From IMG/VR virus record IMGVR_UViG_3300037231_000144, positions 1-21,247 of that record: a stretch of 21,247 nt of DNA; one strand, given 5' to 3'. How positions within the stretch are numbered: position 1 is the first letter of the stretch; every line of letters begins with the position of its first letter. The notes under the pieces were generated by a model. That model ran no database searches. It was not told the DNA's origin and saw only the letters and a program-made list of their open reading frames with translations. Source of the stretch: a virus. Position numbers and translations under genes: made by a program. Positions 2,644-20,708 of this stretch are shown here, piece after piece.

Positions 2644-3168
2644 TTAAGTAATGTGCGCCCACGTGCGGCGACGCTTGATATTGGATATCGTCACATTCGA
2701 CACCCCGAACAATATTGCCTGTTGTCGATTGGTCAATGGGGAGCGTCGAATCTCTCGAATATGATACTCCGTCAAATCACTCTGACCATTCTTGACCCGC
2801 TTGTTGCGCTGGCCAAGTAACTTTTTTAATGCGTAATGCTCCGCGCGCAGCGACCAGGAAAGATTGTCCAATCGATTGTTTCGTTTGTCACCATCGGCAA
2901 AACTCGCTTCATGCCCTTCGGGCTTCGGACCAATAAACGCAGTCAACACCATCAGATGCACCCCCTGCCTGCGCGATTGGCCATCCTTGCTCAGTGATAC
3001 TTCCAGGTGCCCTGTCTTCGCGTGTGGGCTTGGCTTCAGGATGGCTTTCTGGCGGCGCGTACCGAGAAGCGTGTCAAGCGGCGTCAAGCGCGCAAGCGAG
3101 CGGATCCGGCCTTCATCAGAGACTTGATGCGCGCCAATATACCCTTCGACATCACGCCAGATTTCCAT
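2644..3168 (-). CDS. NUMOD4-HNH homing-endonuclease-like protein, catalytic His apparently replaced, 174 aa
   Basis: The N-terminus WRDVEGYIGAHQVSDEGRIR (residues 4-23) is a NUMOD4 DNA-binding motif. The middle matches the HNH/His-Me finger layout: VHLMVLTAFIGPKPEG (70-85), then ADGDKRNNRLDNLSW (91-105). The C-terminus (about 138-172) resembles a helix-turn-helix ending in KRRRTWAHI, common in phage HNH proteins. In family members I know, the residue just before the A/I-DG turn is the catalytic His; here it is Phe90. A GGAGAA ribosome site precedes the ATG at 3168. The gene lies between the two terminase genes, a usual place for free-standing homing endonucleases. It may bind DNA without cutting, or cut with altered chemistry. 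Confidence 0.88.
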   Translation of the reverse strand: MEIWRDVEGYIGAHQVSDEGRIRSLARLTPLDTLLGTRRQKAILKPSPHAKTGHLEVSLSKDGQSRRQGVHLMVLTAFIGPKPEGHEASFADGDKRNNRLDNLSWSLRAEHYALKKLLGQRNKRVKNGQSDLTEYHIREIRRSPLTNRQQAILFGVSNVTISNIKRRRTWAHIT

Positions 3169-4018: not shown

Positions 4019-4075
4019 TTGACTTGTCGCACCTCACCAAGCGTTGCTAACCTTTTTACCTATAGGAATTCTACC

Positions 4076-5059
4076 ATGTCCCACGAACTCACGATTACGA
4101 ACGGCGTTGCAGAGATGGCGTATGCAGGCGAAACCCCATGGCACGGCCTAGGGCAATCGGTCGCGCGCGGTTCATCCCTCGAAACTTGGGCTAAAGCGGG
4201 TGGCATGCAATGGCAGATTGAATCGTCACCCGTTCAATACCAGGCAAACTTCAAGGGTTTGAAAACCACAATCAAAATGCCCGATCAAAAAGTGTTATAC
4301 CGCTCGGATTCACTCGCTGCGCTTGGCGTTGTTGGCTCAAAATTCAATGTTGTGCAACCCGCACAAGTGCTTGAATTTTTCCGCAATTTAACGGAAAAGC
4401 AAGGGTTTCAAATCGAAACTGTTGGAACACTTTTTGGGGGTCGTCGCTTTTGGGCTTTGGCTCACATTGGGGAGGGTTGTGAGATTGTGCCGGGCGATAA
4501 AATCGGCGGTTACTTGCTTCTCTGTACAGGTGCAGACGGTACCCTTGCGACAACCGCACGCTTTACCACGGTACGCGTGGTGTGCAATAACACGCTATCC
4601 ATGGCGCAAAGCGAAGCGGGAGGTGTGCGCACGACGCACCGCTCTGTATTTGACCCCACGCACACGCAAGCACGACTCGGACTTGCGCACGAAGAATTCG
4701 ACGCCTTCAAAGCCAACATGAAACGCCTGGCCGACAAAAACGTGTCACTCGCCCGCGCCGAACGATTGGCTTTTGACTTGCTCAAACCCGCCAACATCGA
4801 CGTATCAAACCTTAAATCGATCGAGAAGGTTTCGGACTCGCGCGCGTTCCGCTCAGTGTTGGCCTTATTCGAAGGGGGTGGACAGGGGTCTACGCTCGAC
4901 GGTGTAACGGGCACGGCTTGGGGTTTCGTCAATGCAGTAACGGAATACGTCGATCATACGTCGCGCGCAACCAGTGTCGATAACCGTTTAAATAGCGCGT
5001 GGTTTGGTGCAGGCGACGCGCTCAAAACAAAAGCCGTTGACCTGGCGCTCGCATTCTAA
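4076..5059 (+). CDS. DUF932 / phage-plasmid-like protein, 327 aa
   Basis: The N-terminus carries the family signature: AGETPWHGLGQSV followed by a Leu/Trp-rich segment (ETWAKAGGMQW) and a beta-rich core. The central FTTVRVVCNNTLSMA and the C-terminal AWGFVNAVTEYVDHT with NRLNSAWFGAGDALK are typical of the DUF932 (TIGR03299-type) proteins found on phages and plasmids. Their molecular function is not established. The ATG at 4076 has a good AGGAA site; an in-frame start at 4019 would lie on the promoter. The gene has its own promoter and is closed by a hairpin at 5068-5088, so it looks like a separately expressed unit opposed to terminase. Confidence 0.92.
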   Translation: MSHELTITNGVAEMAYAGETPWHGLGQSVARGSSLETWAKAGGMQWQIESSPVQYQANFKGLKTTIKMPDQKVLYRSDSLAALGVVGSKFNVVQPAQVLEFFRNLTEKQGFQIETVGTLFGGRRFWALAHIGEGCEIVPGDKIGGYLLLCTGADGTLATTARFTTVRVVCNNTLSMAQSEAGGVRTTHRSVFDPTHTQARLGLAHEEFDAFKANMKRLADKNVSLARAERLAFDLLKPANIDVSNLKSIEKVSDSRAFRSVLALFEGGGQGSTLDGVTGTAWGFVNAVTEYVDHTSRATSVDNRLNSAWFGAGDALKTKAVDLALAF

Positions 5060-6681: not shown

Positions 6682-7140
6682 TTAGATCGCCTGCAACAAT
6701 TCATTCAATTGTTGCCCAAACGATTTAACGGCCTGTAGCGGGTCCGACAGCGTTGGTTGGCTCCAATACCAGGACAAGGCATCCTTGGCCTCTTGTACCC
6801 CCCTGCAAACGCGCACAAAATACCCCGCCGTCGTTAATCTCAATCCCCAATCCGTTTGTTCCTGCGAAGTACGGCTATTTTTCGTCCTTTTCATTTCAAT
6901 AAAACAACCATGGTACGGACCGCGTGCCAACAAGCACCCCAAATCAGGAAAGCCGGGGCTAACCCCTTCGGCTTTCAAGCGAATTGCTTCACGCACTGCG
7001 CGGTACCCACCGTTCGGACACGCGAACATGAAATCCGCTTCTCGCGGGTGAAAAGTTCTTGCCCACGCAAACAACGCAACTTGTTCCGCATGCTCAGTCG
7101 GAACTAAGCCATTAACTTTATCGTGCATCTTTCTTACCAT
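6682..7140 (-). CDS. VRR-NUC domain nuclease, 152 aa
   Basis: VRR-NUC is a PD-(D/E)XK nuclease fold found in phage replication modules and in the FAN1 family, acting on branched or flapped DNA. Key residues are visible: Glu in TEHAEQVALFAWAR (Glu16/Glu19), the conserved NGGYRAVREAIRLKAEGVSP (43-62), the catalytic Asp in GFPDL (Asp66), FIEMK (Glu82, Lys84), then SQEQTDW and the GYFVRVCRG strand. A perfect GGAGG four bases before the ATG at 7140 decides the start; an upstream ATG at 7194 would put that site inside the gene. It lies downstream of the primase-helicase on the same strand, separated by the TGACCGATT repeat zone. Confidence 0.93.
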   Translation of the reverse strand: MVRKMHDKVNGLVPTEHAEQVALFAWARTFHPREADFMFACPNGGYRAVREAIRLKAEGVSPGFPDLGCLLARGPYHGCFIEMKRTKNSRTSQEQTDWGLRLTTAGYFVRVCRGVQEAKDALSWYWSQPTLSDPLQAVKSFGQQLNELLQAI

Positions 7141-7158
7141 GCTACCTCCGACGACTTG

Positions 7159-7528
7159 TGACCGATTGGGACTGACCGATTCGTCAAATTTCATTCTAGC
7201 GTATAGAGAGAGAATATTGAATGAAAGCTATTTGAAAGTTTAGACAAAATACTATTTCTTCTCTATAGGTGTAGTCTTTACTTATATCGGACAATCGGTC
7301 AATAATAATAAAGAATCTAGGTATGACAAGGGTTTCCAGTGTGACCGATTCCTGCCCGATTGCCCTTAGAATGACCGATAAATCGGGCAAATCCAGTAAA
7401 TCTTTACTCTTTGCTGTAGTCATCTCGGTTATCAACCATCGGCCCGAATTCAGCGCCTGCTGAATAAGTGCCCCTGACCGATTCCGCCAACGCCGAAGGA
7501 AACCAACCAATCCCAAATTTATCGGTCA
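7159..7528. repeat. Cluster of TGACCGATT motifs around the primase 3' end (possible iterons/operators)
   Basis: TGACCGATT occurs at 7159-7167, 7173-7181, 7342-7350 and 7475-7483, inverted at 7293-7301, and as TGACCGATA at 7372-7380 and inverted at 7520-7528. Close variants TGCCCGATT lie at 7353-7361 and inverted at 7381-7389, so 7372-7389 forms an imperfect palindrome. The stretch 7196-7403 is AT-rich and holds no confident gene. Such spacing and both-strand use fit binding sites for a repressor or replication initiator. It is not a CRISPR array: units are short and spacing is irregular. Confidence 0.7.
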
Positions 7529-9968
7529 GCGCTTGCGCGTTTTTTGTCCACATTCGATGTCGGATCCCGTCAACGAACAACCTGTTTTCCCAACTGTCTA
7601 ATTTTACGGGAAGCCATCCGGCCCGCAAAAGTACGGTAACCAACCTTTTTCCATAGGGTTTTTCGGGTGCGGACGAGTCGAAATTCCATTCGGACAGTAA
7701 CCAAGTGGCGGACATCAATTCGGAATTCTTACCAAAAACGCCGCCTTTCTGTTCCAGGATGTCGTCGATATGCGTCGAATAATCGTCTCGCGAGAGCTGC
7801 GCCATTTCGGCTTTGTCCCCTCCGACAGGAGCACGATCCTTGGGACGAAAATCTGCACTAATCTCCCGTTCCATGAAAAATTTGCGAAATGCGCCTGCGT
7901 GTGAATCCAAATCCCCGTACAACCGGGCGAAGAACCCTGGATTGGCTGCGCGCCACGCGTCAAAAGCACTCCGATTACCCCAGCGCGAGAAAATCACGTA
8001 ATAACGCGTGTCGGTTTCCTCCAATGGCACGGCATCCCTAAAATTGGTGAACAGAATGTGGTTCATCACGTTCGGCACCTGGTATTCTTCCTGGCGCATG
8101 CGGCGGATCGGCACGGTCGCATTGGTCAAATAGGGTTTGATCTTGTTCAAGGTCTCGTAACCACTGTGACCATGCAGCTTGATTTCTTCGATAAAACCCA
8201 TGTGTCCCGAATCGGCCCAGCCGGTAAATTGTCCTTTCAACGCTTCACCTGAAATCATGCGCACGTTATCCGCGCCGAGCATGCGCGCGCACAGCTGCGC
8301 GAAATAGGTTTTACCGTCACCCTCTTGACCTTGCAGCAAAATGACCCAATTAATCTTTTTGCCAGGAAACTGGATGCAGTACGTCAGATAGTCCAGAAAG
8401 ACGCGCTGGTCGGTCGGCTCGGGAATGAGGTTGCGGATATGCTCGCCTAGCAATGCAAAAGCAGCACGGTCGGCGTGCGTGAGCACGTCAGGCATCGGCG
8501 CACCCAGGTCGGAGCGATACCGATTGGCAAAGCGTTGCTTGTCTTGTTCGAATAATGGTTCCGCGCCAGGCATATAACGCACGCCACGAACAATGGGTAT
8601 TTGGGCTTGTTCAAGCGCGATGCGCGCCGCCGAGACAAATTCCCCTTCACCATCCGAACCCAGAATTCGATTGAACGCCGCGTCAAACGCCTGGCGGGTC
8701 AAACTCTCTTTCACGTCCAGATTGAAAAACTTGTCTTCCTCCGTGACGTAGACCCAACCATCACACCAAGGGTGCGCAACGTTGCCGTCCGTTACCTCGG
8801 TGAGCACCGCGCGACGCTTGATGACCTTGCGCACGGTTTCAATCGAGACGGGCGCGCCGGTCAACACCTTGGCGCGGCGTTTGACTAAATCGAGCACCTT
8901 CTCGTAGAGCAGGGGGAATTGATCGACGAAGGTATTGGCCGCAGTCTTGACTGAGCCCGTCATGAGCGTTGAATACGAAGCACACTCGTTGATGGTTTTT
9001 TCGATGTGCTGCAAGGCTGCATCGGATTGTTCGAGTCGCGCATCGTCCGCCCACTTGAACAGCGAGTGGATCGTTACCGGATTAGTTTTGTGGGCACTAA
9101 ATCGGTCCCATCGATAACGCGTATCGTCCGGTCCGGCATAAACGCCGCCGTTGGTTTTAGACCACTGATCCCATAGAGCGTAGCCTTCGTCCGCCCCGTC
9201 GAATTGGTGGTGCAGTGCCATCCCCACGGCAAGCCATCGGTCATAGTCCGCAGCACTGAGCCCGTCAAGTGCTGCTGCAATTTGGCTTGCATCAATTTGT
9301 TTCGATTCGTTGTGTTGTAAGAGATACGTTTCCGCACGGTCGGAATTCGGTGCAGCCGCTTGGTTTTGGCTCTGCACCACATGCCAAAGCCCCAGCGAAA
9401 CTTGCTGTTCCGCAATGGTCTCAAACGAGCCAATAATGATTTGTGCGATTTCGCGGTTAATTTTAGGGAGTTCAACCGCCGCAATATCCGCAGGGCCTTT
9501 GATGGGCCACGCGTAGTCACGAAGGGTGTCCGGGTGTGTGTGATACGCCGCGAACTGTTGCCCGTCACACAGTATTTCAACTTGAGTAGTCTCGCCAGTG
9601 GGCAACGCATATTTTTTGCTCCTCAACTTGGAAAAGGGTTCGTCAGTGCGCGTGAGCAGAATCAGACGCGGCGCGCGGCCAATCCGGTACGGTAGATCGG
9701 TACCGAGCAACGAACGAATCGACAGGTATAGTTCGCGTACCACGTCCGCGTCGCCGACATCGATATCAATGGCGGGTGTGTGCTTCGTGAGAATCCCGAC
9801 ACCCGCGTCCCGCAACCAATTTTGTTTAAGCCAACTATCCAATACGATTTTATCCGCATTGACTTCGGGCCACTTCTCGATGCTGGGTCTTTTTTCCCCG
9901 TATTTGATTGGAACGATTTTGTACCCGTTATCGATCAGTTGTTGACCGAATTCACGTAAGTGAGCCAT
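7404..9968 (-). CDS. Prim-Pol primase-polymerase fused to SF3 helicase (replication primase-helicase), 854 aa
   Basis: Domains in order: an AEP-type Prim-Pol domain (about 1-160), with PAIDIDVGD (65-73) as the acidic metal motif and QVEILCDG followed by AAYHTHPD (about 129-147). Next is a PriCT-2-like linker (about 232-308, with DRWLAVGMALHHQF and GYALWDQWS). The last large part is an SF3/D5-type ATPase (about 500-670) with Walker A GQEGDGKT (547-554), Walker B-type HMGFIEEI (589-596), sensor HILFTN (637-642) and TDTRYY (652-657). It would prime and unwind phage DNA. GGTGG precedes the ATG at 9968, 22 bp after the YdaS-like gene ends. It is typical of P4-like phage replication proteins. Confidence 0.95.
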   Translation of the reverse strand: MAHLREFGQQLIDNGYKIVPIKYGEKRPSIEKWPEVNADKIVLDSWLKQNWLRDAGVGILTKHTPAIDIDVGDADVVRELYLSIRSLLGTDLPYRIGRAPRLILLTRTDEPFSKLRSKKYALPTGETTQVEILCDGQQFAAYHTHPDTLRDYAWPIKGPADIAAVELPKINREIAQIIIGSFETIAEQQVSLGLWHVVQSQNQAAAPNSDRAETYLLQHNESKQIDASQIAAALDGLSAADYDRWLAVGMALHHQFDGADEGYALWDQWSKTNGGVYAGPDDTRYRWDRFSAHKTNPVTIHSLFKWADDARLEQSDAALQHIEKTINECASYSTLMTGSVKTAANTFVDQFPLLYEKVLDLVKRRAKVLTGAPVSIETVRKVIKRRAVLTEVTDGNVAHPWCDGWVYVTEEDKFFNLDVKESLTRQAFDAAFNRILGSDGEGEFVSAARIALEQAQIPIVRGVRYMPGAEPLFEQDKQRFANRYRSDLGAPMPDVLTHADRAAFALLGEHIRNLIPEPTDQRVFLDYLTYCIQFPGKKINWVILLQGQEGDGKTYFAQLCARMLGADNVRMISGEALKGQFTGWADSGHMGFIEEIKLHGHSGYETLNKIKPYLTNATVPIRRMRQEEYQVPNVMNHILFTNFRDAVPLEETDTRYYVIFSRWGNRSAFDAWRAANPGFFARLYGDLDSHAGAFRKFFMEREISADFRPKDRAPVGGDKAEMAQLSRDDYSTHIDDILEQKGGVFGKNSELMSATWLLSEWNFDSSAPEKPYGKRLVTVLLRAGWLPVKLDSWENRLFVDGIRHRMWTKNAQALTDKFGIGWFPSALAESVRGTYSAGAEFGPMVDNRDDYSKE

Positions 9969-9990: not shown

Positions 9991-10236
9991 CTATCGAAGC
10001 CTGTCCCAAATTTTTATATCGGGCCGGATTTGTTCTTTTGTTAGCGGGCAACCTTCAAACGCCGCGATGGTTTCAGCGCAAGCTTTTGAGACACGCCCGA
10101 CCGAGAGCCAGTGCGTGCCGGTTGATGGCACAACGCCTGCTATCTTACACAGTCCGCCAATCGAGCCCGCCCAATCGACCAGGCGTTGCAGAGCCGCGTG
10201 TGATTGTCGTCGGTATTGTTTAGCGAAACGGCTCAT
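9991..10236 (-). CDS. YdaS/Cro-like small DNA-binding protein, 81 aa
   Basis: Residues about 16-60 have the YdaS/Cro-type helix-turn-helix layout: LQRLVDWAGSIGGLCKIAGV, then HWLSVGRVSKACAETIAAF, ending CPLTKEQIRPDI, the usual close of this family. These proteins act as lytic repressors or Cro-like switches in lambdoid phages. The start at 10236 overlaps the upstream stop as ATGA; a much longer in-frame opening to 10809 is rejected because its extra part is antisense and unrelated. It is followed 22 bp later by the primase-helicase. It could bind the TGACCGATT sites or its own promoter; both are untested. Confidence 0.82.
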   Translation of the reverse strand: MSRFAKQYRRQSHAALQRLVDWAGSIGGLCKIAGVVPSTGTHWLSVGRVSKACAETIAAFEGCPLTKEQIRPDIKIWDRLR

Positions 10237-11153: not shown

Positions 11154-11332
11154 ACGATCTTAACCGTACCGAATTATCCCGAATCTCGGAATACCTGCGG
11201 GTGAGGGCTAACGATCAACAAATGACTTGGGGGCGCAACGACATTATGGCTTCCGCCTGCGCTATAAGGCTGCTTGCTTGGGCTTCTCTAATAGATGCTC
11301 TGTCCGCAGCACAGCAGGGGGAAGGGAAATGA
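11147..11332 (+). CDS. Small phage hypothetical protein, 61 aa
   Basis: The ATG at 11147 overlaps the preceding stop (ATGA) and is served by the purine-rich GGGGAAGGG just upstream. The protein is mainly helical and polar (ELSRISEYLRVRANDQQMTW, then ASACAIRLLAWASLIDAL) and ends AAQQGEGK, identical to the end of the previous gene. The spacing and coupling support translation although the sequence has no recognisable family. It may be a short accessory of the replication operon. The identical tails may mean the terminal string is kept for its ribosome-site function rather than for the protein. Confidence 0.65.
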   Translation: MNDDLNRTELSRISEYLRVRANDQQMTWGRNDIMASACAIRLLAWASLIDALSAAQQGEGK

Positions 11333-11335
11333 ACG
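11309..11335 (+). repeat. 27-bp gene-end/ribosome-site repeat, copy B
   Basis: Second copy of the unit at 11127-11153 with two mismatches. It again ends one gene with QQGEGK and starts the next with ATGAACG, here the methyltransferase-like gene. Confidence 0.85.
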
Positions 11336-11922
11336 TGCTTGTTGGCTGCGAAGAATCAGGTGTCGTGCGGGAGGCGTTCGCCGCGCTTGGGCACAAGGTC
11401 ATCTCGTGTGATCTTGTTGAAACGCGTGTGCCCGGTGCGCATTATCAAGGCGATATTTTTGACGTGATCGACTACCCATTTGATCTTGCAATCTTTCATC
11501 CGCCATGCACGCATACTTCGGTCAGCGGCGCGCGGCACTTTGCCGAGAAGTGGCTAGATGGTCGGGGCGCTGCGGGCGTGGCGTTTTTCATGCAGTTATG
11601 GCGACGTGCGCAGCACATACCGCACGTTGCGTTCGAACAGCCGGTATCGGTCATCAATAGCTTGTTTCGCAAGCCGGATCAGATTATTCAGCCGTGGCAG
11701 TTCGGCCACGGCGAAACTAAAACAACGTGTCTATGGCTGCGCGGGTTGCCACCACTGACGCCGACCAATATCGTTGCGGGCCGCGTTGAACGCGTGCATA
11801 GAATGTCACCAAGTCCGACTAGGGCGCGCGAGCGTTCAGCCACATATACAGGTATAGCAAAAGCGATGGCAGAGCAATGGAGCGCCGCACAGCACGCGCC
11901 GCAACCGGGAGCAGAGAAGTGA
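11329..11922 (+). CDS. Cytosine-methyltransferase-like phage protein, 197 aa
   Basis: The N-terminus VLVGCEESGVVREAFAALGH (3-22) with SCDL (26-29) is the SAM-binding start of a family of small phage proteins related to C5-cytosine methyltransferases. FHPPCTH (56-62) holds the Pro-Cys pair of the catalytic motif. FEQPVSVIN (102-110) stands where many relatives have ENP. KPDQIIQPWQFGHGETKTTC (115-134) and ATYTGIAKAMAEQW (171-184) are also typical. It is much shorter than true C5 enzymes and lacks a clear target-recognition region, so it may modify DNA poorly or have another use. It could protect phage DNA. The start is set by ATGA coupling. Confidence 0.82.
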   Translation: MNVLVGCEESGVVREAFAALGHKVISCDLVETRVPGAHYQGDIFDVIDYPFDLAIFHPPCTHTSVSGARHFAEKWLDGRGAAGVAFFMQLWRRAQHIPHVAFEQPVSVINSLFRKPDQIIQPWQFGHGETKTTCLWLRGLPPLTPTNIVAGRVERVHRMSPSPTRARERSATYTGIAKAMAEQWSAAQHAPQPGAEK

Positions 11923-16358: not shown

Positions 16359-16574
16359 ATGAAAAAACTTATTGAAGAATTATTGCAAATCGAAACTTTG
16401 ACGGACTCGCAAAAAGCTGCGTTGCTTGCTGATATCGTGCAGGCGATTCGGCTCGATTTTTATAAAGCTGCGGCGTTGCAAGGCATCATCGCACATTACG
16501 GCACAACGGTCGCAGCACCTGAAAAAATCATTCCTTTTGCACATGAATTGGCGTGTCAGGCGATTCTTGATTAG
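16359..16574 (+). CDS. Small helical phage protein before the polymerase, 71 aa
   Basis: CGGAG about nine bases before the ATG at 16359 supports the start; the open frame back to 16293 has none. The product is almost all helical: MKKLIEELLQIETLTDSQKA, AALLADIVQAIRLDFYKAAA, then a short C-terminal segment (APEKIIPFAHELACQAILD). It has one Cys and no enzyme motif. No family is recognised. It ends one base before the polymerase start, so polymerase translation is probably coupled to it. A small accessory of the polymerase is possible by position. Confidence 0.72.
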   Translation: MKKLIEELLQIETLTDSQKAALLADIVQAIRLDFYKAAALQGIIAHYGTTVAAPEKIIPFAHELACQAILD

Positions 16575-16575
16575 C

Positions 16576-18588
16576 ATGCGCCGCCTGCACATAGATATTG
16601 AAACCCAATCGGAACTCGACCTTTCTAAAGTCGGAGTGTACAAATATGCCGAGCACCATTCCACAAGAATTACTTTCGTTGCTTGCGCACTCGATGATGG
16701 ACCAGTATCACTCCCGGTTAGAAGCGGGCAAATTTGGCCCGTGCGCTATCGAATCGATGACATTGAACTTGCAGCTCACAATGCCGAATTTGAACGGGTC
16801 GTCCTTGGAAGTGCTTGTGGCAAGCAAATTGGCTTTCCACAAACGCGGATCGATCAGTGGGTATGTACTGCATCTAAAGCGTCGGTTCATGCACTTCCGA
16901 GGGCACTAGAAAAATGCGCAATTGCGTTGGGTCTCGCTAATCGGATCGATCCGACCAAGCGAGCGAACATGCTTTCACTTGCCAAGCCCAACAAGGCCGG
17001 GGTGTTCTGGACCCCTGAGACACAACCGCAAAAGTTCGAACAATGGGGCAACGATTGTATGGCGGACGTGGAAGCCGAGCGGGAAATCGACCAGCTTTTG
17101 CCGGACCTGATTCCATCGGAAAAACGGCTCTATGTTCTCGACCAGGTTATCAATCAGCGCGGCTTCGCGGTTGACGTTGATACTGCCATTGCGGTGTGCA
17201 AGCTGCGCGACGAGCACGTTGCCGAACTGGTTGAAGAATGTATGAAAATCAGCGGTTTCGCACCAAGCCAGCGCGCCGAGATTTTGAACTGGCTGACAAG
17301 CAAGGGTGTGGAGCTGAAAGACTACACCGCCAAAACCATAAAAGATGCACTCGACGGACCACACGAAAATGAACGCGTTCTCCAAATTCGCCGCGAAACC
17401 GGCAAGACTTCCGTGGCAAAATTTGATTCGTTATTGCGTACTGTGTGCGCTGATGGTCGCATACGCGGGTCATATCTGTTTCACGGTGCTTCACCCGGCC
17501 GTTGGACAGGAAAGGGTTTTCAACCGCACAACATCGCTAAGCCCACAATTGATTGGGAAGTGGATTTAGCGGAGCAGCTTAAAACCATGTCGCTCGCTAC
17601 GCTCGCCACGCTTGAGCCATCCGTTATGGACGCGCTCTCGTCGTGCGGGCGACCCATGATTATCGGAGGGCCGGGCCGCGAGCTGATCGCCACCGATTTT
17701 TCCTCGGTCGAATCGCGCATTACCGCGTGGTTGTGTGATGAACAATGGAAGTTGGACGTGTTTCGGGGTGACGGGAAAATCTACGAAGCGGTCGCGGCAC
17801 GCATGTTTAAAAAGCCGGTTGAATTTTTTGCTGAATACCGAGCCAAAACCGGCAAGCACCATGCCTATCGGGATTTGGGCAAGCGCACGGAGCTAATGTG
17901 CGGGTACGCGGGCGGTTTAGCTGCGGTCAAGCGTTCACCGGGGTTTGAAAAGACCGGTGCGACCGACGAGGAAGTCCTACAGTGGGTTGCTTTGTGGCGT
18001 GAGGCATGTCCGCGTACTAAAGGCATGTGGAAGGGCTTGGAGCGGCTGATAGCGAACGCGATCGAGTCCGGCCAGGTGACGCAAGGCTATAAATGTCGTT
18101 TTGGGCTGGTGACCTATGCGAACGGCTACAAATTTCTAAAAATTCAGCTACCTTCCGGGCGCGGCATCTTCTTTGCAAACCCGAAGGTGGATAAACGCAA
18201 CGTAGTGTGGTCGGAAGAATTAAAACGCTACGTGGCGTATAACCCTGATGCGCACAAAGACGCCTATGTGAAGGTGCAACGGGAAATCGGGTTCTGGCAA
18301 CAAATCAAGGAGCAATGGGTTTATGACACAGCGCACGGCGGGATTTTTCTACAGAATATCGTCGAAGGTGTGGGCCGCGACTTACTCAAGTCAGGCATGC
18401 TTCGCCTGGACGCGGCTGGCTATGAGATTGTTGGTCATACCCACGATGAAGCGTTTAGCGAGGTTGACTATGGCACGCGCTCGGTTGCGGAACATGATGC
18501 ATTGATGTGCGAATTACCAATATGGGCCGGAGGGCTCCCGATGAATGCAGCAGGCTATCGACACAAGAGATACCACAAAGATGAGTGA
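16576..18588 (+). CDS. Family A (PolA-type) phage DNA polymerase, 670 aa
   Basis: The 3'-5' exonuclease domain (1-180) shows LHIDIET (Asp7, Glu9), AAHNAEFERV (67-75) and NDCMADVEAE (159-168). The polymerase domain has GASPGRWTGKGFQPHN (304-319), motif A ELIATDFSSVESR (369-381, Asp374), motif B RDLGKRTELMCGYAGG (432-447) and motif C IVGHTHDEAFSEV (618-630, Asp624 and Glu625). The layout matches the phage-type PolA proteins of about 650 residues, lacking a 5' nuclease. The second exonuclease motif has Glu where many have Asp, which is frequent in this phage group as I recall. The ATG at 16576 is right after the previous stop. It is the replicative polymerase. Confidence 0.96.
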   Translation: MRRLHIDIETQSELDLSKVGVYKYAEHHSTRITFVACALDDGPVSLPVRSGQIWPVRYRIDDIELAAHNAEFERVVLGSACGKQIGFPQTRIDQWVCTASKASVHALPRALEKCAIALGLANRIDPTKRANMLSLAKPNKAGVFWTPETQPQKFEQWGNDCMADVEAEREIDQLLPDLIPSEKRLYVLDQVINQRGFAVDVDTAIAVCKLRDEHVAELVEECMKISGFAPSQRAEILNWLTSKGVELKDYTAKTIKDALDGPHENERVLQIRRETGKTSVAKFDSLLRTVCADGRIRGSYLFHGASPGRWTGKGFQPHNIAKPTIDWEVDLAEQLKTMSLATLATLEPSVMDALSSCGRPMIIGGPGRELIATDFSSVESRITAWLCDEQWKLDVFRGDGKIYEAVAARMFKKPVEFFAEYRAKTGKHHAYRDLGKRTELMCGYAGGLAAVKRSPGFEKTGATDEEVLQWVALWREACPRTKGMWKGLERLIANAIESGQVTQGYKCRFGLVTYANGYKFLKIQLPSGRGIFFANPKVDKRNVVWSEELKRYVAYNPDAHKDAYVKVQREIGFWQQIKEQWVYDTAHGGIFLQNIVEGVGRDLLKSGMLRLDAAGYEIVGHTHDEAFSEVDYGTRSVAEHDALMCELPIWAGGLPMNAAGYRHKRYHKDE

Positions 18589-19069: not shown

Positions 19070-20326
19070 TCAAAATAGCCCTGGCGCGTTAAACACCGCG
19101 CTGGCAACATCGCTGTAGCCAACCGCCAAGCAATGCAGCGGGTCCCACATATAACCCAATGCGTTTGCCGCAGCCCATGAAACAAAACGTTTTCTCAAGT
19201 CGATCACGGGAAGGTTGTTCGCCGCCGCAAGTGCGTATTGCGCTGTTACAAACTGCTCCTGTGTGGCCTCAGGAATAATTGTCGTTTCGCTCGGCACTTC
19301 GATCAACATAATCATGTCTGACACCGCCGTAACTGCGGTGATGAACTGTTGATAGGCTGCAATATATGCTGCTACAGTAATCTCGCGCGAATCGTTAATT
19401 CCGATTCCACAAATCACAAGTGACGGAGCCATCGAAACCAAACCGGGTTGCCACGACCAGGGGGAAGAGGTACTTGATAACGAAAGTGCCGTTGCGCCAC
19501 AATCACCATTATTCCAAACAGAAACAGTCGGCTTCGTAGAATTTAAGGTTTCGACGCCGATGACGAAAGTGGACGCGGGCGTGCCACTGATGCGCACGTT
19601 TACCGTTCCTGTAGCAGGCGCAGCTCCGGTCGAAATCGTTTTGCGAACAAACGCGCCCACGCCTGCGGTCGAAAAGGTCGAAAGTGCTGCACCGCCGATG
19701 TCAACGGCAAGCGTGCCGAGCGCAGTGTTTTGCACATAAGTTACAACGATAGTATCGAACGCGTTGACAGGGGTAAACGCAATGGGGTTTGTCGTCGTAT
19801 TGTTAAAAAAGGAGCTTCCCCCGACACTTGGAACACCAGTTGGCCCCCAACCCGCACCTAACACGATTCGCGGGTCCACTACAGGAACGGTTGCCCCCGC
19901 TACGGTAGCAAAGCCGTTGTCACCCCAAAACGAATCAGCTTGCGCCGGTACGGCGTAGGCGTTTAGTAACTGCTGAAGCCATGCAGGATAGGCAAGAGCA
20001 TGCGCCCCTGTGTAGCCGTTACCGCCAGGCGCACCTAACCCCGCAGACGTTGAATCTCCGGTCAAGGCAATTTGCGCGTTGCCTGCTCCCGTTCGAACTT
20101 GCGCCAGGGCCAAACGGAACCGTGGCAGTGAATTCGGGGAGAAATTAGTGTAGGCACTCGACAAAGCTGGCTCTAACAGTGAAAGCGGAACTTGAACGTC
20201 TTTCCCTGCTTGTACAGCAGGCACTGTTTCGGTTCCGGTTAGCGCTGTCGCAACAGGCAAACCGAGATACCAACGCGGGGTAATGTGATAACTGCCGATG
20301 CCTTTTGCGTCTGAGGGGTTGCCCAT
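19070..20326 (-). CDS. Tail protein with SGNH/GDSL-type hydrolase domain, 418 aa
   Basis: SGNH blocks are visible: IALTGDSTSAG with the nucleophile Ser in GDS (90-92), GIGIND (307-312, Asn311) and WDPLHC (394-399, Asp395 and His398). The gap between the first two blocks (about 215 residues) is far longer than in free esterases (usually under 100) and holds a beta-rich insert (about 170-280). Such domains in tail spikes remove acetyl groups from surface sugars during adsorption. The start at 20326 is two bases after the preceding stop; a longer opening to 20377 overlaps that gene. The neighbouring tail-fibre genes support a virion role. The enzymatic activity is inferred. Confidence 0.85.
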   Translation of the reverse strand: MGNPSDAKGIGSYHITPRWYLGLPVATALTGTETVPAVQAGKDVQVPLSLLEPALSSAYTNFSPNSLPRFRLALAQVRTGAGNAQIALTGDSTSAGLGAPGGNGYTGAHALAYPAWLQQLLNAYAVPAQADSFWGDNGFATVAGATVPVVDPRIVLGAGWGPTGVPSVGGSSFFNNTTTNPIAFTPVNAFDTIVVTYVQNTALGTLAVDIGGAALSTFSTAGVGAFVRKTISTGAAPATGTVNVRISGTPASTFVIGVETLNSTKPTVSVWNNGDCGATALSLSSTSSPWSWQPGLVSMAPSLVICGIGINDSREITVAAYIAAYQQFITAVTAVSDMIMLIEVPSETTIIPEATQEQFVTAQYALAAANNLPVIDLRKRFVSWAAANALGYMWDPLHCLAVGYSDVASAVFNAPGLF

Positions 20327-20327
20327 T

Positions 20328-20708
20328 TTATGTGCCTGCGGGGTAAGCGGGTTTAGTCGGTAAAGCGATTGTAGCATCGCCGGTTGCTGTTCCTACGATC
20401 GCGCGCAAAGCCTTGCGGTATGTGGCCCACGCAGTTGGAACGACAACTGCATTTTCATAGCACCGCAAGATTGTTTTGTCGGATTCGGTCAGTGCTGCTT
20501 GCGCTAGGCTTTGTTGCGTGGCCCATGCGGCGGCGGCAAGTTGCGCGGTTGTCGGTGCTGGTACGGTATAGGGTTGGAGCGTCAAGGGAACCGCCAACAC
20601 CACGCCGAGCACAGTAGTGAAAGTGCACACGCCCGCGCTGTCCGTGACGACCACGTTATCATCAAAAGCCCATACTTTTTGAGTCACTGTATCAATAAAG
20701 GTTTGCAT
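20328..20708 (-). CDS. Tail-fibre-associated/assembly-type protein, 126 aa
   Basis: The start at 20708 overlaps the preceding stop (TAATG) and has GGAG seven to eight bases upstream. The N-terminal 50 residues are beta-rich (VWAFDDNVVVTDSAGV), then there is an Ala/Gln helix (TTAQLAAAAWATQQSLAQAA). The C-terminal part SDKTILRCYENAVVVPTAWA followed by YRKALRAIVG and LPTKPAYPAGT is a pattern I know from small proteins next to tail-fibre genes (tail fibre assembly/XkdW-like). It probably helps fold or is attached to the fibre encoded just upstream. The exact role is inferred. Confidence 0.78.
   Translation of the reverse strand: MQTFIDTVTQKVWAFDDNVVVTDSAGVCTFTTVLGVVLAVPLTLQPYTVPAPTTAQLAAAAWATQQSLAQAALTESDKTILRCYENAVVVPTAWATYRKALRAIVGTATGDATIALPTKPAYPAGT

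Follow-up and report, generated by a model that had tools for sequence, protein, structure and literature searches.

What does a cluster of short repeats do at the 3′ end of a phage primase gene, and which protein would read it? The question arose with the IMG/VR virus contig IMGVR_UViG_3300037231_000144, analysed as one strand over its 21,247 bases (the window). A sequence-only reading of this stretch had offered two answers for the repeats: iterons of a replication origin beside an initiator or helicase gene, or operators for a nearby YdaS/Cro-like protein. The former was strengthened by the conserved position of the array, by an AT-rich element and by a motif that covaries with the winged-helix region of the primase; the latter became unlikely on account of two relatives, L009 and AH2, and the lack of an exact site near the Cro gene. 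From sequence comparison, structure modelling and analogy with known systems, we consider it probable (roughly 0.8) that the array is an iteron-type replication origin which the prim-pol/helicase itself recognises through its C-terminal winged-helix domain.

The array and its surroundings in the window

A motif search of the whole contig reproduced the sites, orientations and palindrome described in the sequence-only reading. The sites and neighbouring features are as follows.

7159..7528, no strand assigned: iteron array of nine sites, proposed replication origin (motif search and cluster statistic)
7159..7167, plus strand: iteron, exact TGACCGATT (motif search)
7173..7181, plus strand: iteron, exact TGACCGATT, 14 bp from site 7159 on the same strand
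7293..7301, minus strand: iteron, exact TGACCGATT, inverted, abutting a promoter-like -10 hexamer
7342..7350, plus strand: iteron, exact TGACCGATT (motif search)
7353..7361, plus strand: iteron variant TGCCCGATT, 11 bp from site 7342
7372..7380, plus strand: iteron variant TGACCGATA, left half of the palindrome
7381..7389, minus strand: iteron variant TGCCCGATT, right half of the palindrome
7475..7483, plus strand: iteron, exact TGACCGATT, within codons of the primase C-terminal tail
7520..7528, minus strand: iteron variant TGACCGATA, within codons of the primase C-terminal tail
7186..7330, no strand assigned: AT-rich zone between iteron sets, candidate DNA unwinding element (GC scan)
7329-7302, minus strand: promoter-like TTGTCA-16-TATTAT, its -10 hexamer touching site 7293
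6682..7140, minus strand: VRR-NUC nuclease gene following the array; its start is now placed at the ATG at 7140 instead of at 7194
7404..9968, minus strand: prim-pol/PriCT-2/DUF5906 (NrS-1-like) helicase of 854 amino acids, proposed initiator (domain searches)
7533..7718, minus strand: predicted C-terminal winged-helix domain of this protein, about residues 751-812, proposed iteron reader (AlphaFold2 and scan)
9991..10236, minus strand: Cro/YdaS-like protein encoded ahead of the primase (its Pfam match is weak and falls short of the curated cut-off)
16426-18588: PolA-like phage DNA polymerase

The imperfect palindrome TGACCGATAAATCGGGCA at 7372-7389 consists of the paired sites 7372 and 7381. 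When the motif was counted over the whole contig, as the sequence-only reading had advised, TGACCGATT with at most one mismatch was found at 18 sites, against 5.7 ± 2.2 in dinucleotide shuffles, none of 100 of which reached 18. Half of these sites (five exact copies and four one-mismatch variants) are confined to 370 bp, and the rest of the 21-kb contig holds no exact copy. The cluster statistic gave z = 13-18 for the primase 3′ region, and three control regions taken from this contig scored between -1.2 and 0.8. Short repeats are thus clustered beside the putative initiator gene and absent elsewhere, as is characteristic of iteron origins. An Rfam search returned no match.

The array had been described as lying between the primase-helicase and VRR-NUC genes and extending into the primase 3′ end, which was borne out with one refinement. 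Judged from the sequence, translation of VRR-NUC most likely begins at the ATG at 7140, which is preceded by GGAGG. This makes 7141-7403 an intergenic interval, and of the nine sites 7475 and 7520 alone fall within the primase gene, in an unconserved C-terminal tail that follows the predicted winged helix. The helicase part of the primase matches 6k9c by profile (E about 1e-20), which we take to be the structure of the phage NrS-1 primase, and its N-terminus matches structures of pRN1 ORF904 (E 2e-4, by profile). The best annotated relatives of the primase belong to Casjensviridae (AH2, BcepNazgul and chi, 26-35% identity).

Genes for an SNF2-type helicase, DUF2800, an Enc34-type ssDNA-binding protein and PolA run divergently from Cro and the primase, and an early-operon protein at 11227-11922 (plus strand) matches the phage DNA methyltransferase family phrog_757. 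The remainder of the contig (DUF932, HNH and tail fibre genes) is organised differently from a standard Casjensviridae genome, and the 21,247 bases yielded no terminase gene. The NUMOD4/HNH endonuclease gene at 2644-3168 (minus strand) is probably of the homing type and has a similar-looking ORF at 8997-9548 in L009; the DUF932 protein at 4064-5059 (plus strand, E 5e-58) likewise resembles an L009 ORF at 6722-7777 (minus strand). The tail-region protein at 19070-20377 (minus strand) carries a GDSL/SGNH-type hydrolase domain.

The AT-rich stretch mentioned in the sequence-only reading proved to be an extreme: the lowest-GC 100-mer of the whole contig is 7213-7312 (26% GC), and it is bracketed by iteron sets, which agrees with the AT-rich segment expected within or beside the iterons of an origin. 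Likewise, 41 of 55 loci have their GC minimum within the array, compared with 2.2 expected by length, and this holds for the window too. Cumulative GC skew, proposed as a check around 7.3 kb, has its contig minimum at ~9.2-9.5 kb instead, near the Cro/primase region. As this position coincides with a switch of gene direction, the minimum was not counted. The corresponding minimum of AH2 is at 55,043, ~2.5 kb away from its array.

Arrays at the primase 3′ end of related phages

Relatives were collected as primase loci from viral contigs, retrieved with an alignment query and tblastn and reduced to 93 non-redundant ones; a single-sequence primase scan of viral contigs and megablast against phages gave no matches. 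A scan of genome contigs for close relatives of the window phage gave none, and the one close relative found is L009, the nearest, which has a 62-63% identical primase and the same gene order. Arrays were called by a blind repeat-cluster statistic (z ≥ 4) in a fixed 600-bp interval at the primase 3′ end. A significant short-repeat array was present in 43 of 92 non-redundant viral loci, while control regions reached this threshold in 1/93, 1/93 (inside the primase gene) and 1/90 (upstream of the primase) cases. About half of the loci thus have no detected array at this position; in some further ones it lies 0.5-2.9 kb downstream, past inserted genes and beside cos. False clusters arising from tandem coding repeats were removed by inspection (L009 +1259, L038, L058 +1877 and L062 +1922). 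A 27-bp tandem repeat encoding KPPAPPVPL units, at ~6010-6150 of L009 and close to its replication region, was a false top match in the repeat search.

Each phage group has its own array motif.

AH2 and BcepNazgul: AGGTCCGAAT
L015: ATTCGGTATG
Erythrobacter phage R22L: AATCGGTTCC
Suzuki: ACTGTCACAA
chi: GGTTACAA
L009: AAC[TC]AGACCC, unrelated to the window motif
BPP-1 (L326), as a possible array: inverted pair of doubled 9-bp TTGCCTCGT repeats 3′ of the primase

Neighbouring sites on the same strand are most often 8-12 bp apart, in blocks that alternate in orientation. The AH2-type and L015 sites occupy near-identical positions after the stop codon in a different spelling, and the AH2 array is placed between two convergent genes. 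The layout of the array is therefore conserved across relatives and its motif sequence is not, so that the conservation of spacing anticipated by the sequence-only reading holds for the arrangement and fails for the letters. In the literature on BcepNazgul, AH2, chi and Casjensviridae we found no published replication origin for these phages, and the AH2 paper does not mention repeats or iterons.

Which protein follows the motif

In the AlphaFold2 model (mean pLDDT 76, core 82-93; L003 and L008 were left out of the folding alignment), residues 773-782 of the primase are helical, and a wing of the strand-turn-strand type spans residues ~797-808. The proposed recognition helix, ~773-782, is preceded by P771-Y772. 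A Foldseek search against the PDB gave no significant match to a solved winged helix, the best being a PadR wHTH with E 0.32, and a sequence search of solved structures with the winged-helix profile found nothing significant.

Motif similarity was compared with identity along the primase in 47 phages and in a stricter subset of 34. A global partial Mantel test of motif against winged helix, controlling for the primase core, was run first on all pairs and gave rho = 0.067 and p = 0.068. Rank-based sliding scans along the primase over all pairs were not significant either, most motif pairs being unrelated. Once the Mantel result was known, a tail test on similar-motif pairs was adopted; such pairs are few and partly related, and label permutation leaves some of this relatedness in. 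In a blind scan of the whole primase with this test, residues 765-807 had the top excess identity among similar-motif pairs (+0.078, permutation p = 0.0005), and the excess persisted in the stricter set (p = 0.0006-0.0014). Two cases illustrate it, both noticed by eye ahead of the formal test. L015 and L063, whose primase cores are 38% identical, have in common TCGGTATG and the wing VFVxGRPRRYW, and the AH2-type phages and L062 (cores 40-41% identical) have in common GGTCCGAA, the helix start PQTxxL and FRVxGRY. The structural model and the covariation among similar-motif pairs favour a match between the specificity of the predicted winged helix and the iterons, for which the global Mantel test fell short of significance.

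The same comparison bears on the idea that the Cro/YdaS-like repressor, or another regulator, uses the repeats as operators to control VRR-NUC or the primase operon. The gene for the Cro-like protein directly precedes the primase, the palindromic pair is what such a repressor might bind, and VRR-NUC could be repressed from site 7293, because the minus-strand promoter-like sequence abuts that site. However, Cro showed no excess identity among similar-motif phages, its similarity being independent of motif similarity, and the Cro-like protein of L009 is 82% identical to that of the window, with the helix region VVPSTGT[HR]WLS nearly unchanged, yet serves a phage with an unrelated motif. Furthermore, between the convergent gene ends that enclose the AH2 array there is no promoter to regulate, and exact sites are absent near the Cro gene of the window. 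The motif follows neither the repressor nor its promoter; given the L009 mismatch and the absent covariation, this explanation was rejected as very improbable.

A second candidate reader is the small terminase subunit, which would bind the repeats as cosB-like or pac-like packaging signals. Lambda-type cosB consists of repeated protein-binding sites near cos that are read by this subunit, and here too repeated sites lie close to cos. In Casjensviridae, the array stands between the primase and cos and stays near cos when genes are inserted after the primase, and that of AH2 resumes past cos with two sites in inverted orientation (188 and 205). Beyond these, no other AH2 sites above 12.2 bits were seen in the 58-kb genome, scanned except for about 1.1 kb. 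The terminase-binding explanation was taken seriously because of this linkage of array and cos. Unlike in lambda-type cosB, however, TerS does not covary with the motifs: among 30 cos phages with comparable TerS, neither the whole protein nor its N-terminal part showed an excess (p = 0.13-0.96), whereas the primase winged helix did (p ≤ 0.001), and L062 carries the AH2 motif with a TerS N-terminal part just 18-25% identical to the AH2 type. Adjacency to the packaging site was seen in Casjensviridae; the arrays of the window, L009 and L065-L085 have no nearby match to the Casjensviridae cos consensus, which may merely mean a different cos sequence in these loci. The GC minimum inside the array also suits an origin better. 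As the motif does not follow TerS, packaging signals were rejected as the function of the repeats and appear very improbable. Many of the loci that extend far enough (L012, L014, L015, L017, L286, chi and others) carry the cos consensus itself, GCGGCTCWGCGCMCYC, on the same strand, between about +410 and +930 from the primase stop. The match to AH2 TerS has one in-frame stop in each of the three contigs from which L034, L039 and L040 come.

The proposed origin among known systems

In the preferred reading, an iteron-type origin read by the primase, the prim-pol/helicase would bind the 9-bp TGACCGATT sites through its C-terminal winged-helix domain, and several protomers would load onto the iteron sets that flank the AT-rich zone. 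The helicase ring would then assemble on the array and melt this zone, and the same protein would prime synthesis there for the PolA-like phage DNA polymerase. Binding, melting and priming are steps that we infer.

The closest precedents place repeats and initiator in a similar arrangement. According to the account of Ubeda et al. (2007) in PMC7581432, SaPI Rep uses its C-terminal domain to recognise iterons that immediately follow the Rep gene, and as far as that account goes the likeness extends to a helicase-type initiator whose C-terminal domain (in a role that is predicted here) sits on multiple short repeats. In contrast to SaPI, the putative initiator here joins an AEP prim-pol to an NrS-1-like helicase in one protein, it occurs in tailed phages, and the ~9-bp sites are in mixed orientation and extend up to or across cos in Casjensviridae. 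In SCCmec, the initiator helicase Cch2 binds direct repeats at a putative origin, located in the intergenic stretch that follows the cch2 gene (PMC7581432), a layout like the one proposed here; this origin has three 5-nt iterons only, and the primase-polymerase is a separate protein. The P4 alpha protein binds origin repeats via a winged-helix domain (Yeo et al. 2002, as cited in PMC4234260) and, to the extent of that citation, likewise unites primase, helicase and C-terminal winged helix in one protein with repeats at the origin, where binding is what we propose for the present phage. The P4 primase, however, is of the bacterial Toprim type, whereas the present one is archaeo-eukaryotic, and P4 alpha was not among the fold and sequence search matches of the window primase.

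Plasmid pRN1 and the Bordetella phages BIP-1 and BPP-1 share the gene order: a repressor gene, a prim-pol/SF3-type helicase with a C-terminal winged helix, and then the origin, which in pRN1 lies downstream of the prim-pol/helicase gene (PMC4234260). This architecture (AEP prim-pol, helicase, winged helix and upstream repressor) is present in the window, where the repressor call and the winged-helix fold match are weak, and the Bordetella phages also have the PriCT-2 domain in their primase. The pRN1 origin requires its stem-loop, and for BIP-1 the same authors proposed a stem-loop and saw no convincing iteron origin (PMC4234260). By extension, the origin in the window could be a structure-specific stem-loop with the repeats merely as its arms. 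Single-stranded 7141-7403 does fold better than shuffles (z = -2.1, 5/200), its outer stem being formed by iterons 7293 and 7159, which are inverted relative to each other, and the inverted TTGCCTCGT pair of BPP-1 3′ of the primase points the same way. This signal is modest, however, and inverted iterons yield it automatically; many direct tandem and single sites are superfluous for a hairpin, and the motif covaries with a domain of a double-strand-binding type. Where pRN1 has a large stem-loop without iterons, the window has a clear iteron array, and we regard the stem-loop explanation as very improbable.

The BPP-1 element is a perfect inverted repeat with two 9-bp-spaced TTGCCTCGT units per arm, ~466-570 bp past the primase stop between bbp28 and bbp27. 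It is possibly the stem-loop reported for BIP-1, and the two could be the same element, viewed here as iterons; this iteron reading is offered as a suggestion, because four copies barely exceed shuffles.

The kind of origin proposed is itself known, and what is new is the combination of an AEP prim-pol initiator, iterons that switch together with it and an overlap with the cos region in many relatives. More tentatively, and at somewhat less than even odds, Casjensviridae and their relatives may share a modular iteron origin in which the array sites co-switch with the helix and wing of the primase, giving dozens of mutually exclusive specificities in one layout, and in which the members with cos couple the start of replication to the genome end. 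If the origin reading is true, it would provide a predicted origin and initiator for many Casjensviridae-type phages and would fill in the sequence-specific sites missing from the pRN1 authors' account of such prim-pol initiators. The ~50 natural pairs of motif and winged helix would then be a resource for the DNA recognition code of this domain and for phage incompatibility.
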